A stretch of 64,000 nt of DNA from Actinophytocola algeriensis (lineage in GTDB: Bacteria; Actinomycetota; Actinomycetes; Mycobacteriales; Pseudonocardiaceae): positions 248,001-312,000 of the forward strand of contig NZ_JACHJQ010000007.1 of NCBI RefSeq assembly GCF_014203735.1. The letters run 5' to 3'. The position numbers were made by a program, and so were the translations under genes. Below, one piece after another: positions 10,835 through 36,995 of the stretch. How positions within the stretch are numbered: position 1 is the stretch's first letter; each line of letters starts with the position of its first letter. The notes below the pieces were generated by a model, which made no database searches, was not told where the DNA came from, and saw nothing but the letters and a program-made list of their open reading frames with translations.

Positions 10835-10993
10835 GCCGAATACACCCCCTCTCCCGCCTCGGAAATTCCAACGGGTGCCGCCAGGTCCCCGCCCGCTCGT
10901 CGAACCTGGCGCCGGGGAAGGTGTGCCAGGGTCGAAGGCGAGCGGAACGGAGGCCTCGCGGCACCCGCGTGCATGCCCGGTGTTCCGCTCCCG

Positions 10994-27834: not shown

Positions 27835-27880
27835 CACCGTGTCCACCAACGTGTGCCGGGTCCTTCGGCCACCGCCGATG

Positions 27881-28030
27881 CCCTGAAAGGCGCGTTCACG
27901 ACACAGCCAATGCCCTCAACGCGCCTTTCACAACAACCCACGTGTCCTCAACGCGCCTAATGGGTGGTGAGTGGAGCGTGATCATCGGTGGATCCAGGCT
28001 GAACGCCCCGAAAGCGCCTTTCGGGACACC
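27881..28030. repeat. Cluster of short palindromes (GAAAGGCGC family)
   Basis: TGAAAGGCGCGTT (27884-27896) pairs perfectly with AACGCGCCTTTCA (27918-27930). CCCGAAAG-CGC-CTTTCGGG (28007-28025) is a second palindrome. A further AACGCGCCT half-site lies near 27950. These share the ATGCCCTGAAAG or CCCGAAAG cores with 36939-36995 and 9149-9205. The cluster abuts the dispersed element copy B. Confidence 0.75.
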
Positions 28031-28084: not shown

Positions 28085-28325
28085 CAAGCCCCACTCCACC
28101 CCCGAGGCTGCCTGCCATCCCGTCGACCTGGCGAAGCCCGATCACACTGTGCCAAGGGGCCTGCAAGAAGCACAGGATTGCCAAAGCTCCGGCCTCTTGA
28201 CGCGGTGTGATAGCCCGCAGGGAGGTCGACGGGATGGCAGGCAGACCGTCCCTCGCCAAAGAACCGAAGATGCCAAACGCAAGCCATCCCAGAGACCTGC
28301 CCCTCCGGCGAGGAGGCCCGTCCGG
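28085..28325 (-). repeat. Dispersed palindrome-bearing element, copy B (inverted relative to copy A)
   Basis: An imperfect palindrome spans 28112-28240 with an 18-bp perfect outer arm identical to that of copy A. On the minus strand the order is AGGTCTCTGGGATGGCTT (28281-28298), the CCTCCCTGCGGGCTATCACACCG arm, a variable loop, then GTGTGATCGGGCTTCGCCAGG. This is the same order as on the plus strand of copy A at 4.1 kb. Loops and flanks differ, so selection or copying keeps the arms. No gene lies between 27835 and 28469. Confidence 0.75.
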
Positions 28326-31527: not shown

Positions 31528-31938
31528 TCAGTCCTCGATGCAGATCAGGGACGTGCACCTGGTCGTTGTCGTCGTGGTCGTGCGCGGTGGCGTCGTCGTC
31601 GTGGTCCGCCGCGTCGTCGTCGTGGTGGTCGTCGTCGTCTCGTCCGACGGCTCGGACTCCGCGGTCGTCGTCGTGGTGGTGCTCGACGTCGTGGTGGTCG
31701 TGGTCGTGCTCTCGTCCCGCGACGGCCCGGAAGACGACGCTTCCGTCGTGGTGGTGGCGGTGGCACCGGCCGACTGCGAGGCGGGCGGGATCGGCTCCAC
31801 CGCGCCCAACTCGGACGGGTCGTGCTCCGGCCGGTCCGAGCCACCGAGCGCACCGAGCGCGAAGAGCGTGCAGGTGATCGCCCCCACGACGGCCCCGACA
31901 GCCAGCCGGCCGTGACCGCTTTGCAGGGTGGACCCCAT
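31528..31938 (-). CDS. Thr-rich single-span membrane protein
   Basis: A 136-residue protein. One membrane segment (LAVGAVVGAITCTLFALGAL) is followed by about 85 mostly Thr residues, with Ser/Glu and Arg interruptions, and a C-terminal CTSLICIED with two cysteines. The long Thr run should be exposed outside the cell and could be O-glycosylated, acting as a stalk or spacer. It is a low-complexity protein with no family assignment. Its stop is 6 bp from that of the ParA-like gene. Confidence 0.7.
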   Translation of the reverse strand: MGSTLQSGHGRLAVGAVVGAITCTLFALGALGGSDRPEHDPSELGAVEPIPPASQSAGATATTTTEASSSGPSRDESTTTTTTTSSTTTTTTAESEPSDETTTTTTTTTRRTTTTTPPRTTTTTTTRCTSLICIED

Positions 31939-32075
31939 TGGTGTCCTTCGGGTGAGCGTCCAGCGACCACTGGTAGTTGGCTGTCGAATCTACCTCACCC
32001 GAACGGGGGAGTCACCGCGGCATCGCGACGCGGTTGTTCCCGAGTACGCCGTGAGTTGAATCGCGAGAAATGCCT

Positions 32076-32104
32076 TTGCCGGTCCCCGCATTCGGCCGTA
32101 ATGT
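32076..32104 (+). promoter_or_regulatory. Promoter of the putative structured RNA
   Basis: TTGCCG (32076-32081) and TAATGT (32099-32104) are separated by exactly 17 bp, a housekeeping sigma pattern. A start point near 32111 is predicted. No protein gene on the plus strand follows except the 12-codon ORF. Confidence 0.7.
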
Positions 32105-32136
32105 CGGGTGTACACGAGAGAGGAGGTGGTCCAACG

Positions 32137-32175
32137 GTGAATTCCCATAGGACTCGTGAGGTGGCTGTCCGCTAA
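32137..32175 (+). CDS. 12-codon ORF inside the structured RNA
   Basis: GTG to TAA encodes MNSHRTREVAVR. GAGAGGAGG lies about ten bases upstream, a strong ribosome site. The whole ORF sits inside the GGTGGTCC/GGACCACC stem, whose 5' arm overlaps the end of the ribosome site, so translation and folding would compete. It may be a leader-like peptide, or the apparent ribosome site may only be part of the stem. Confidence 0.4.
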   Translation: MNSHRTREVAVR

Positions 32176-32311
32176 GGACCACCCAAACGGACATGGTTTG
32201 GCCGGCCGCGCTACACGGCATGACACCGGTTCGCCGGTGCCGGAGACGCGCGGTGTGGTCGGCGAATACCAGGCAGTCACCCAGCCCCCGGAGCTCTCAG
32301 GGACCTAGTCC

Positions 32312-32359
32312 GCCCCTGGGCCTGCGCAAGCAGGAGACGGCCCGGGGGCTGTTTTATTT
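32312..32359 (+). terminator. Intrinsic terminator of the structured RNA
   Basis: GCCCCTGGGCC (32312-32322) pairs with GGCCCGGGGGC (32339-32349) through 11 bp including one U-G pair. TGTTTTATTT follows at 32350. It ends just before the stop of the convergent coiled-coil gene. Confidence 0.85.
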
Positions 32360-32367
32360 CCCCTGTT

Positions 32368-33240
32368 TCATTTGCCCAGTTCGTCGAGCTTCTGCTCGGC
32401 CTGCTGCACGAGCCGCCACGCCTGCCCGGCCCTGCGCTCGGCGTCCTTCACCGACCGGCTCGCCGACCCGACGCGCCGGCGCGCCTCCTTCTCCTCGGCC
32501 TCGGCGGCGTCCAGCTCCTCGTTGATCCGGCGCACCTTCTCGGTCGCCGCGTCCACCGCCTTCTGCGTCTCGGCGAGGATCCGTTCCTCTTCCTTGCGGT
32601 CGGCCTCGGCCTCCTTGACCGCCCCCCGCGCGTCGTCCAGTTCCTGCCGGGCCGCGTCCCGCTTGCGTTCCAGCTCGGCGTCCTCGCGAGCGGTCCGCTC
32701 CTTCTGCGGCTTCTTCGGCGCGCGCCTCGGCACGAGGCCCGTCGCCGCGGCCGGGTCGGCGGACGGCCACGCCGCGGCGGCCGCGGCCAGGTCCTTCGCC
32801 GATGCCAACCTGCCCGCGATCAGCACGCGCGCGACCTCGGCGTCGGCGATCGCGGTCGTGAAGATGTCCTCCAGCTCACGGGTGACGCCCTCGGTCAGCG
32901 GCGACCCGTTGAGCTTGCCCGCGCGCGCCACCAGCCCGTTGACGAGCTTGGTGCGCCGCTGCGACAGGGCACGCAGGTCGGCGCCCGCCAGGTTCGCGTG
33001 CGCCTCCCGGAACGCGTCACCCAGCTCGGCGACCTCGTCGACGTCCGCGTCCGGGTCGCGGGCGAGCTGGTTCGCGAGGTGCGCGGACGTGGTCGGCTTC
33101 GCGAGCTTCTCGATGGCGGCGGCCAGCTTGGCGTCACCGGCGGTCCTGGCCTCCTTCGCCAGTTCCTTGCGGCGTGGCGTGAAGTCCTCGCGGGCACCGG
33201 CGTACAGCTCGTCTGCGGCGGAATCCAGGTCGGCGGGCAC
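32368..33240 (-). CDS. Coiled-coil hypothetical protein
   Basis: A 290-residue, mostly helical protein. The N-terminus (PADLDSAADELYAGAREDFTPRR, KPTTSAHLANQLAR) is followed by an Ala-rich region and, from about residue 195, a long Lys/Glu/Arg-rich coiled coil (QELDDARGAVKEAEADRKEE and onward). I know of similar actinobacterial proteins without assigned function. GTG 33240 gives the usual VPADLDS start; upstream GTG codons in frame lack support. It is divergent from pyrD by 72 bp. Confidence 0.8.
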   Translation of the reverse strand: MPADLDSAADELYAGAREDFTPRRKELAKEARTAGDAKLAAAIEKLAKPTTSAHLANQLARDPDADVDEVAELGDAFREAHANLAGADLRALSQRRTKLVNGLVARAGKLNGSPLTEGVTRELEDIFTTAIADAEVARVLIAGRLASAKDLAAAAAAWPSADPAAATGLVPRRAPKKPQKERTAREDAELERKRDAARQELDDARGAVKEAEADRKEEERILAETQKAVDAATEKVRRINEELDAAEAEEKEARRRVGSASRSVKDAERRAGQAWRLVQQAEQKLDELGK

Positions 33241-33312
33241 ACCCCCATCCTGCCGCGAACCGGCGACGATGGTCACGCCGCGGGCCCCGTCGCGGGATGA
33301 AACGATGGCCGG

Positions 33313-34320
33313 GTGGTCTACCAGCGAGTTCTGCGGCCGGCGTTGTTCCGGATGGGTGGCGGCGACGCCGAGGTGGCGCACGAGCGCACGGTGCGGATGA
33401 CCGCGCGGCTCGGTGCCGTGCCGCCTGCCGTGGCCGGCCTGCGCCGGTACTTCGGCGGGGCCGCGCCCAGGACCGTGTTCGGCATCCCGTTCCCCGGCCC
33501 CGTCGGGCTGGCGGCCGGGGTGGACAAGGACGGCCGGGCGCTGAAGGCGTGGCCCGCGTTCGGGTTCGGGTTCGTCGAGGTCGGCACGGTGACGTGGCAC
33601 GCTCAGCCCGGCAACGAGAAGCCGCGGCTGTTCCGGCTGCCTGCGAGCGAGGCCGTGATCAACCGGATGGGTTTCAACAACGGCGGCGCGGAGGCGCTCG
33701 CGGCGCGGCTGACGGCGTTGGGGCCGTTGCGGGTGCCGCTGGGTGTGAGCATCGGCAAGTCGAAGATCACCCCGGTGGACGAGGCGGTCGACGACTACCG
33801 GCGCTCGCTGCGGGTGCTGGCGCCCCACGCCGACTACGTCGCGGTGAACGTCAGCTCACCCAACACCCCGGGCCTGCGCGGCCTGCAGGACAAGGCGGCG
33901 CTGGACACGCTGCTCGGTGAGCTGCGGACGACGCTGCCGCTGCTGGTGAAGATCGCCCCGGACCTGACGGACGAGGCGATCGGCGAGGTCCTCGAGGTGT
34001 GCGCGGCGCACCGGGTGGCCGGCTTGATCGCGACGAACACGACGCTGTCCCGCACGGGACTGGCCCCGGTAGACGAGGCCCGCGGCGCGGAGACGGGCGG
34101 CCTGAGCGGCCGCCCGCTGACGGGACGCGCGCTGGAGGTGGTGACGTTCGTGGCGAAGGAGACGGGCGGCGACCTGCCGATCATCGGCGTGGGCGGCATC
34201 CACTCCGTGGACGACGCGCTGCGGATGCTGGACGCGGGCGCGTCACTGGTGCAGCTCTACACGGGTTTCATCTACCGCGGCCCTGGCCTGGTGCGGGAGA
34301 TCAACCGCCGGGCCCGGTGA
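33313..34320 (+). CDS. pyrD: Dihydroorotate dehydrogenase (quinone), class 2
   Basis: A 335-residue class 2 enzyme, membrane-associated and quinone-linked, which oxidises dihydroorotate to orotate in pyrimidine synthesis. Features: N-terminal helix region ([18 protein letters not shown]), [57 protein letters not shown] with the catalytic Ser, [20 protein letters not shown] and IGVGGI. GTG 33313 is the start. It ends 6 bp before the pspM stop. Confidence 0.96.
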
Positions 34321-36912: not shown

Positions 36913-36938
36913 CCCAAGAGCCTAACCACAGCAGACCG

Positions 36939-36995
36939 ATGCCCTGAAAGACGCTTTCGGGACGCTGAGCGTCCCGAAAGCGTCTTTCAGGGCAT
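36939..36995. repeat. Perfect 57-bp palindrome (28-bp arms)
   Basis: Arms 36939-36966 and 36968-36995 are exact reverse complements with a single central base. The ends read ATGCCCTGAAAGACGC and GCGTCTTTCAGGGCAT. It lies 26 bp upstream of the membrane-protein start and 37 bp after the clgR stop, so it could end clgR transcription or regulate the next gene. It belongs to the same family as the palindromes at 9149 and 27884. Confidence 0.85.

Follow-up and report, generated by a model that had tools for sequence, protein, structure and literature searches.

A reading frame built into the fold of Ms_IGR-5, a catalogued actinobacterial small RNA, hints at a translation-gated switch

Introduction

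What is a 12-codon reading frame doing inside the fold of a structured RNA? The question is raised by a locus of Actinophytocola algeriensis that lies in a stretch of 64,000 nt (contig NZ_JACHJQ010000007.1, positions 248,001 to 312,000), here called the window, whose own numbering is used throughout. The original prediction, made from the letters alone, described a free-standing transcript with a tiny open reading frame (ORF) enclosed in its first stem, proposed that ribosomes on this ORF control the fold, and knew of no named family with this layout. Here we identify the RNA, compare it with its relatives, and consider what its architecture may be for.

Results

A covariance-model search matched positions 32112-32357 of the forward strand to Rfam family RF02471 (Ms_IGR-5) with 83.2 bits (E 6.8e-17, cut-off 45) across the whole model, positions 1-184. 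The RNA does belong to a named family, contrary to the original prediction. As a full-length match above the curated cut-off, it is not different from Ms_IGR-5, and the window holds a member of this catalogued actinobacterial sRNA. The Rfam search that had been recommended as a check gave no other family, 6C included, for this stretch up to E 1, and ARAGORN found 0 tmRNA genes in the window. A 60-nt query had no match among phage records, and a phage origin was set aside. The genome carries a single RF02471 match, and single copies are usual; among the rows listed for genomes of the same taxonomic family, the exceptions are G111 and G171 with two each. Our own model of the RNA, R1, was built from 56 sequences and includes two helices introduced below, P1 and P2; it scores 96.3 bits on the window RNA, over the 5' domain that R1 describes.

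Transcription of relatives has been reported in S. lividans (PMC8079986), S. avermitilis (PMC8780764) and M. smegmatis, where IGR-5 overlaps ncMSMEG15794c (PMC10454040). The openly licensed literature searched, to which the original IGR-5 description (Li et al. 2013, RNA) does not belong, held no account of the mini-ORF or of the match to the 16S tail described below.

RF02471 was found in 161 of 200 genomes of the same family, always over the cut-off, and had no match in 39. It occurred in 192 of 296 genomes of the class (191 over the cut-off) and, at E 0.001, in 70 of 396 genomes of the phylum (35 over the cut-off). R1 matched 144 of these 396 genomes at E 0.01 and 141 at 0.001, values that are rough because calibration was short and that include genomes which supplied R1's sequences. 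R1 also matched 39 of 217 genomes of Acidobacteriota (the phylum of L173, labelled Bryobacterales), 12 at E 4.4e-7 or better and 27 at 2.8e-6 to 0.0088, and 4 of 218 genomes in the phylum of L191, labelled Deltaproteobacteria. The best 12 of the 39 Acidobacteriota matches and all 4 from L191's phylum (L305-L320) have a ribosome site with an in-frame short ORF in 16/16, and a TAG 15 nt after a GAGGTG in 16/16.

An exact-pattern scan of named genomes returned at least 120 stretches. Among the 80 matches listed with labels, nine fall outside Actinomycetota: Sumerlaeota, Zixibacteria, Nitrospirae, two Deltaproteobacteria, two Bryobacterales and two Acidobacteria. Since all nine are metagenome bins, single cases could be misbinned, and the mutually similar pairs (Bryobacterales, Deltaproteobacteria) are safer. 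One of the two Acidobacteria, L179, labelled Acidobacteriota, resembles an Acidimicrobiia contig by sequence and was left out of the range evidence. These matches suggest that the class extends to Acidobacteriota, with thinner evidence for other phyla.

For comparative counts we used 140 RF02471 matches, either the best-scoring in family and phylum or hand-chosen for spread over family, phylum and class, together with 120 pattern-scan loci. Removing 28 repeated 5' domains from these 260 left 232 distinct loci, and dropping 2 near contig ends left 230. In the 120 scan loci, GAGGTGRCYG and part of the ribosome site are set by the search pattern, which leaves the spacing between the two, the frame, P1 and the pseudoknot free. 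The features of the window RNA are collected in Table 1.

Table 1. Features of the Ms_IGR-5 locus, in window coordinates
Feature	Position	Strand	Evidence or remark
A-tract upstream of -35	32068-32070	+	A at -43 in 159/230 and at -42 in 170/230 aligned promoters
-35 element TTGCCG	32076-32081	+	TTG near -36 family-wide
-10 element TAATGT, 17-nt spacing from -35	32099-32104	+	conserved TANNNT
Ms_IGR-5 RNA with its U-run	32112-32359	+	RF02471 match, R1 match
P1 5' arm CACGAG	32113-32118	+	covariation; pair probability 0.84-0.98
Extended Shine-Dalgarno site GAGAGGAGGTGGTCC	32118-32132	+	can pair with all 15 nt GGATCACCTCCTTTC of relatives' 16S 3' tail, G-U allowed
12-codon ORF GTG AAT TCC CAT AGG ACT CGT GAG GTG GCT GTC CGC TAA	32137-32175	+	frame, start and stop conserved
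Pseudoknot 5' arm GGACU, codons 5-6	32150-32154	+	
P1 3' arm CUCGUG, codons 6-8	32153-32158	+	closes loop with ribosome site and start codon
P2 5' arm GGUGGCUGUC (32160-32169) and P2b CGCU (32170-32173), codon 8 to the stop's U	32160-32173	+	
GGACCACC, proposed 3' arm against ribosome site	32176-32183	+	lineage-specific, not the favoured fold
UUCG-capped hairpin CACCGG-UUCG-CCGGTG, variable region between P2 arms	32224-32239	+	folding
P2b 3' arm GGCG	32261-32264	+	pairs with 32170-32173
P2 3' arm GGCAGUCACC, site before terminator	32272-32281	+	pairs with 32160-32169
Intrinsic terminator: outer stem 32282-32291 x 32342-32351, inner hairpins (one GCAA-capped), then UUUUAUUU	32282-32359	+	
Hairpin within terminator, loop = pseudoknot partner	32296-32320	+	
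Pseudoknot 3' arm AGUCC, in hairpin loop	32307-32311	+	

The promoter with 17-bp spacing seen in the original prediction proved to be a family feature. Across the 230 loci the layout is common: TANNNT, TTG near -36 and an A-tract near -43, which in the window is presumably placed like an UP element. Relative to the first A of the RNA, TANNNT begins at -13 or -12 in 190/230 loci, where it is the sole such site in the preceding 22 nt; in 20/230 the 22 nt before the RNA start contain none. The UUCG-capped hairpin and the GNRA-capped terminator stem were also described correctly, the latter as CCTGC-GCAA-GCAGG (from 32321) inside the terminator. The genes that probably flank the RNA are ORFs 31528-31938(-) and 32368-33828(-), both on the opposite strand as had been noted and both without a Pfam match. 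Genes for a ParA-like ATPase, a dihydroorotate dehydrogenase and a PspA/IM30 protein lie farther out. Among the 140 loci compared, no ORF family neighbours more than 24, and the first coding stretch downstream, its strand called by a GC3 rule of thumb, is on the opposite strand in 116 of the 230 loci, on the same strand in 88 and not found in 26. With its conserved promoter and with downstream genes on either strand, the RNA is probably a free-standing transcript of about 250 nt, as proposed.

Several other features of the window were recorded along the way. ORF 31528-31938(-) would encode 136 aa, threonine-rich and of low complexity, over a GTC/GTG-type DNA repeat. An mraW RNA (RF01746, 63.9 bits, cut-off 50) lies at 10863-10972(-). 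A dispersed short repeat, CCGATGCCCTGAAAGGCGCGTTCACGAC, occurs at 27875-27902, 27907-27934 and 36936-36963; the third of these overlaps a perfect inverted repeat (36939-36995, 28-nt arms) and is like a small intergenic repeat element. Another inverted repeat (28108-28244) has 54-nt arms, 78% complementary and 29 nt apart.

The tiny ORF with a strong ribosome site is present as described, and its frame is kept among relatives. When starts are sought 2 to 11 nt downstream of the ribosome site's TCC, the main frame (through GAG-GTG) has an ATG, GTG or TTG start in 210 of the 232 distinct loci, against 63 and 1 for the other two frames. These 210 ORFs have 12 codons in 168 loci, 13 in 24, 14 in 16 and 15 in 2. 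The start shifts with the distance from ribosome site to GAGGTG: it is in frame at offset 4 in 61/61 loci with 25 nt, at offset 5 in 69/73 with 26 nt, at offset 6 or 3 in 39/39 with 27 nt, and at offset 4 or 7 in 13/13 with 28 nt. At longer spacings no ATG, GTG or TTG is in place in 8/15 loci (29 nt) and 6/10 loci (32 nt), and several long-spacing loci have CTG, ATT or ATC there instead. Counting CTG, ATT, ATC and ATA as starts raises the main frame to 226/232 and the third to 2; near-cognate starts are a reading and not proof, since the second frame is then open in 132/232.

The end of the ORF is fixed as well. Counted from the start of GAGGTG, 228 of the 230 loci have a stop at exactly 15 nt, and this stop keeps its position even though its last two bases are outside P2 as drawn. 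Internal stops interrupt the main frame in 1 of 210 loci, versus 156 and 196 for the other frames. Two distant loci, L078 and L080, lack one base in the P2 5' arm and reach TAG one base earlier. By eye, a short ORF from ATT (L078) or TTG (L080) still ends at that same TAG.

The encoded peptide behaves differently from the frame. Between close pairs of loci, codons 2-4 show 114 amino-acid changes versus 20 silent ones, and the third position changes least (27/134). These codons are rich in A and T, in keeping with a region kept open for initiation. Further along, the residues [R/W]T[R/C]EV[A/T]x are encoded by bases that pair. By these comparisons the ORF is conserved as an ORF, and the peptide appears not to be conserved beyond what pairing demands. 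Starts in the 12-codon class are TTG in 73, ATG in 64 and GTG in 31 of 168 loci, and stops among the 230 loci are UAG in 179, UGA in 31 and UAA in 18. TTG as the commonest start and UAG as the main stop are unusual for G+C-rich actinobacteria.

We then asked which fold the RNA adopts. The window sequence alone folds into P1, P2 and P2b, with a minimum free energy (MFE) of -115.7 kcal/mol compared with -103.0 (sd 5.4) for shuffles, of which 3/200 were as good. Alignment A1 was drawn from 69 diverse sequences, each selected for a good P2 score and with no filter on P1; 13 rows were removed by hand, most for a misplaced P2 arm, leaving 56. Over P1 and P2 together, 87.5% of A1 cells are paired versus 75.8% when shuffled, with 118 double-changed cells versus 34.7 and a covariation of 0.367 versus 0.153; 0/500 shuffles reach any of the three values, of which the P2 counts lean upward because of the score filter and the dropped rows. 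Sliding the partners by 1-3 columns lowers pairing to 50.2% or less. In the main run of P1, four of five pairs change on both sides, and the fifth-from-the-end pair is unpaired in 33/56. At the second base of codon 11 and its partner, the 56 sequences include C-G 19, T-G 14, G-C 12, A-T 6 and T-A 4 times.

The larger set gave a similar picture. On the 230 loci P1 is paired at 0.813, compared with 0.698 when arms are swapped (maximum 0.721 of 300). P2, its arm picked by complementarity, is paired at 0.963 versus 0.869 with arms swapped, and a P2 score of 14 is reached by 209 of 230 loci versus 95 with shuffled downstream sequence. For the pseudoknot, GTCC lies in a hairpin loop, under a lenient hairpin rule, in 167 of the 196 loci with xGGACx. 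Its outer pairs form at 0.677 versus 0.397 when permuted (0/2000) and at 0.449 versus 0.302 (1/2000), and the core is swapped to CGACC/GGUCG in L058, L070 and L185. As predicted helices, P1 and P2 covary strongly and the pseudoknot moderately. Outside Actinomycetota the pseudoknot is uncertain: the pattern-set loci there have no partner or doubtful ones, L305-L314 have exact hairpin-loop complements of 4-5 nt in 8/10 cases (GACC/GGTC, GGAC/GTCC or GGACC/GGTCC) that may be chance, and L315-L320 have no like pair.

On A1, RNAalifold recovered the inner pairs of P2, together with a small pairing within the ribosome site, and did not find P1. The structure printed by Rfam for RF02471 is without P1, P2 and the pseudoknot. 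It includes a helix, 14-19 x 55-60, that pairs in 294/336 A1 cells, but whose 5' side hardly varies and whose two outer pairs fail in 35/112 cells; the helix is absent from the window's MFE. This result questions the Rfam drawing, not membership of RF02471.

The stem in which the original prediction had placed the ORF, GGTGGTCC/GGACCACC (32125-32132 x 32176-32183), is not favoured: its pairing probability is 0.001, and forcing it costs 4.5 kcal/mol. Its 3' arm, as GGACCRCC near the stop, occurs in 30/230 loci, 21 of them among the 41 Pseudonocardiaceae, so that the stem is at most a lineage-specific alternative. In favour of the stem, 33/230 loci have, no more than 45 nt from the stop, a sequence complementary to the ribosome site at 8/8 positions, versus a shuffled mean of 15; at 7/8 or better the count is 145 versus 131.7, no excess worth naming. 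Given its low probability and limited lineage, we rejected this stem as the main fold. The broader idea, that the fold depends on translation of the embedded ORF, fared better: frame, start, stop and folds are conserved in the 230 loci and recur in Acidobacteriota, with other helices than the one named. The check for neutral decay was also run, and stems and ORF do not decay like neutral sequence. What had been missed is that the ribosome site can pair with the whole 16S 3' tail and that the ORF itself forms P1, P2 and the pseudoknot.

We next considered the ribosome site. With G-U pairs allowed, all 15/15 nt of the 16S tail are pairable in 139 of the 140 RF02471-found loci, a set that leans towards this match because the Rfam model covers the ribosome-site stretch; with Watson-Crick pairs only, the longest run is 7-15. 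The complementarity is taken from relatives, since an exact pattern did not find the 16S end of the window genome itself. GGATCACCTCCTTTC is present in 20 of 22 relatives searched. Of 25 such loci read, 24 follow directly on what we take to be the end of the 16S rRNA sequence; the remaining one, L287, overlaps with the RNA gene, on the other strand. The 9.7-Mb genome has 5 GAGGAGGTGRTCC sites versus 4 for the reversed control pattern; with counts so close, the long site does not look like a gene habit here.

The two P1 arms enclose the ribosome site and start codon, with 34-36 nt between them in 173/230 loci and 33-45 nt in 229/230. A length of 34-36 nt is about a ribosome footprint. Ribosome-protected reads have been reported on Ms_IGR-5 homologues of M. 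abscessus and M. smegmatis (PMC4974804). They agree with translation but are weak evidence, because most characterised E. coli ncRNAs show such reads too (PMC4974804).

Finally, we compared the RNA with known systems, beginning with CC2171 (RF01867). CC2171 has no match up to E 1 in window positions 32000-32450, where its 75-bit cut-off is not reached. Of 8 non-actinobacterial genomes tried, 4 (L191, L152, L168, L173) give sub-threshold RF01867 matches at the place of the Ms_IGR-5-like RNA, which suggests kinship of the two families and is not proof. Six plasmid loci (Methylobacterium, Azospirillum, Skermanella, Sphingobium) comprise five at 68-84 bits for CC2171, two of them over 75, and one at 24.2; this last (L303), where a 57-codon ORF starts, was dropped as a CC2171 RNA. 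The five have AAGGAGGTG[AG]TC[CT] at the beginning, a start codon 1 nt on and a short ORF of 24-26 codons beginning MSHC or VSHC. A CATTG-type stretch of this ORF is complementary, by eye, to a site just before the terminator, as in P2 of Ms_IGR-5. No listed gene lies under the ORF in three annotated records. CC2171 differs from the window RNA in its longer ORF and other sequence; the anatomy is similar, and common descent is not proven. In one case, L302 on a Skermanella plasmid, the CC2171-type RNA lies just downstream of hflX, an annotated GTPase.

Leader peptides and attenuators under ribosome control select between RNA folds as a ribosome moves along a short ORF. The window RNA would be alike in its ribosome-chosen folds and differs in that no regulated downstream gene was found and that it ends at its own terminator. 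Toxic minigenes combine a very short ORF with a strong ribosome site, and tmRNA carries an mRNA-like part among folds; the window RNA differs from these in its ORF of 12 codons and in the ARAGORN result. SgrS and SR1 are dual-function sRNAs with an ORF (PMC11133741). They differ as well, in that the window RNA's peptide is not conserved apart from pairing and its ORF is structure.

Discussion

The sRNA family is a catalogued one. It has a well-supported internal logic of which the literature searched gave no description. Comparison of the loci establishes a layout in which a site able to pair with the whole 16S 3' tail sits in a loop closed by P1, followed by a short start-to-stop frame of 12-15 codons that is conserved. 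In the same comparison, codons 5 to the stop form the pseudoknot, P1 and P2.

Our reading, held with slightly less than even confidence, is that RF02471 is a free-standing structured RNA working as a translation-gated switch. A 30S subunit would dock on the ribosome site via the 16S tail, and the ribosome would translate the mini-ORF, stopping at the far edge of the P2 5' arm and melting the pseudoknot, P1 and P2 on its way. Initiation and folding seem compatible, elongation and folding not. Translated copies would open, freeing the P2 3' arm, the GAAUnCC motif and the hairpin loop, or leading to degradation of the RNA, and untranslated copies would stay folded. The RNA would thereby report how often initiation-competent ribosomes arrive, with the open or folded form acting in trans on a partner and the peptide a by-product. 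Frame, start and stop persist although the peptide drifts, which makes ribosome passage the likely signal. On this evidence the window RNA looks like an old, widespread ribosome-responsive RNA.

A reading that gives the ribosome site the leading part is that the RNA docks or parks 30S subunits: the 16S-tail duplex would hold them and titrate initiation, for example from Shine-Dalgarno to leaderless mRNAs, and the mini-ORF would serve only to release the ribosome. The near-universal complementarity to all 15 nt speaks for it, as do the GAGGAGGTGRTCC counts (ordinary genes seem not to use the site), the common weak starts (TTG in the 12-codon class; CTG, ATT and ATC in several distant loci) and the prevalence of UAG stops. 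It leaves unexplained why codons 5-12 form P1, P2 and the pseudoknot and why the stop falls at the end of P2, and we consider it unlikely. The G-rich stretch in the loop might instead be the seed of an ordinary antisense sRNA, the Shine-Dalgarno-like sequence pairing with C-rich RNAs, of which 6C/B11-type loops are an example. The Rfam label of sRNA fits this view, which does not predict a conserved frame, start and stop and which we regard as improbable.

Two further explanations look to what the ORF encodes or what follows it. In a dual-function RNA the 12-residue peptide would itself be active, and [R/W]-T-[R/C]-E-V-[A/T]-x does recur, with TREV in several Acidobacteriota loci. The recurrent codons are the paired ones, however, and residues change where the partner base changes, as at codon 11; together with the excess of nonsynonymous changes in codons 2-4 this disfavours the peptide as the product and makes the explanation very improbable. 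The layout of ORF, alternative helices and terminator also resembles a leader peptide with an attenuator of a downstream gene. The next likely gene in the window is convergent, however, no ORF family accompanies the loci, and, by the GC3 rule, the downstream strand is mixed over the 230 loci; on this last ground we rejected attenuation of a neighbour gene, to which we assign almost no probability.

The translation-gated switch invites a wider reading, in which Ms_IGR-5 and CC2171 would be branches of one ancient bacterial class of free-standing RNAs that gauge the availability of mature 30S subunits ready for initiation. The 3' end of finished 16S rRNA, when free, would wind into the closed loop, and the outcome would flip a trans-acting RNA, in the manner of 6S RNA and RNA polymerase. 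We consider this wider reading rather unlikely.

The case also illustrates how a single object may be split, with sRNA catalogues describing one half and catalogues of small proteins the other. If the translation-gated switch is true, a testable fold replaces the one drawn by Rfam, and the range of RF02471 grows from actinobacteria to Acidobacteriota and perhaps others. Bacteria of several phyla would then maintain a dedicated RNA in which the reading frame is the entire architecture, and the act of translation, not the peptide, would be the signal. This would suggest what a catalogued Rfam family does and would open a direct test of how cells gauge their ribosome supply.
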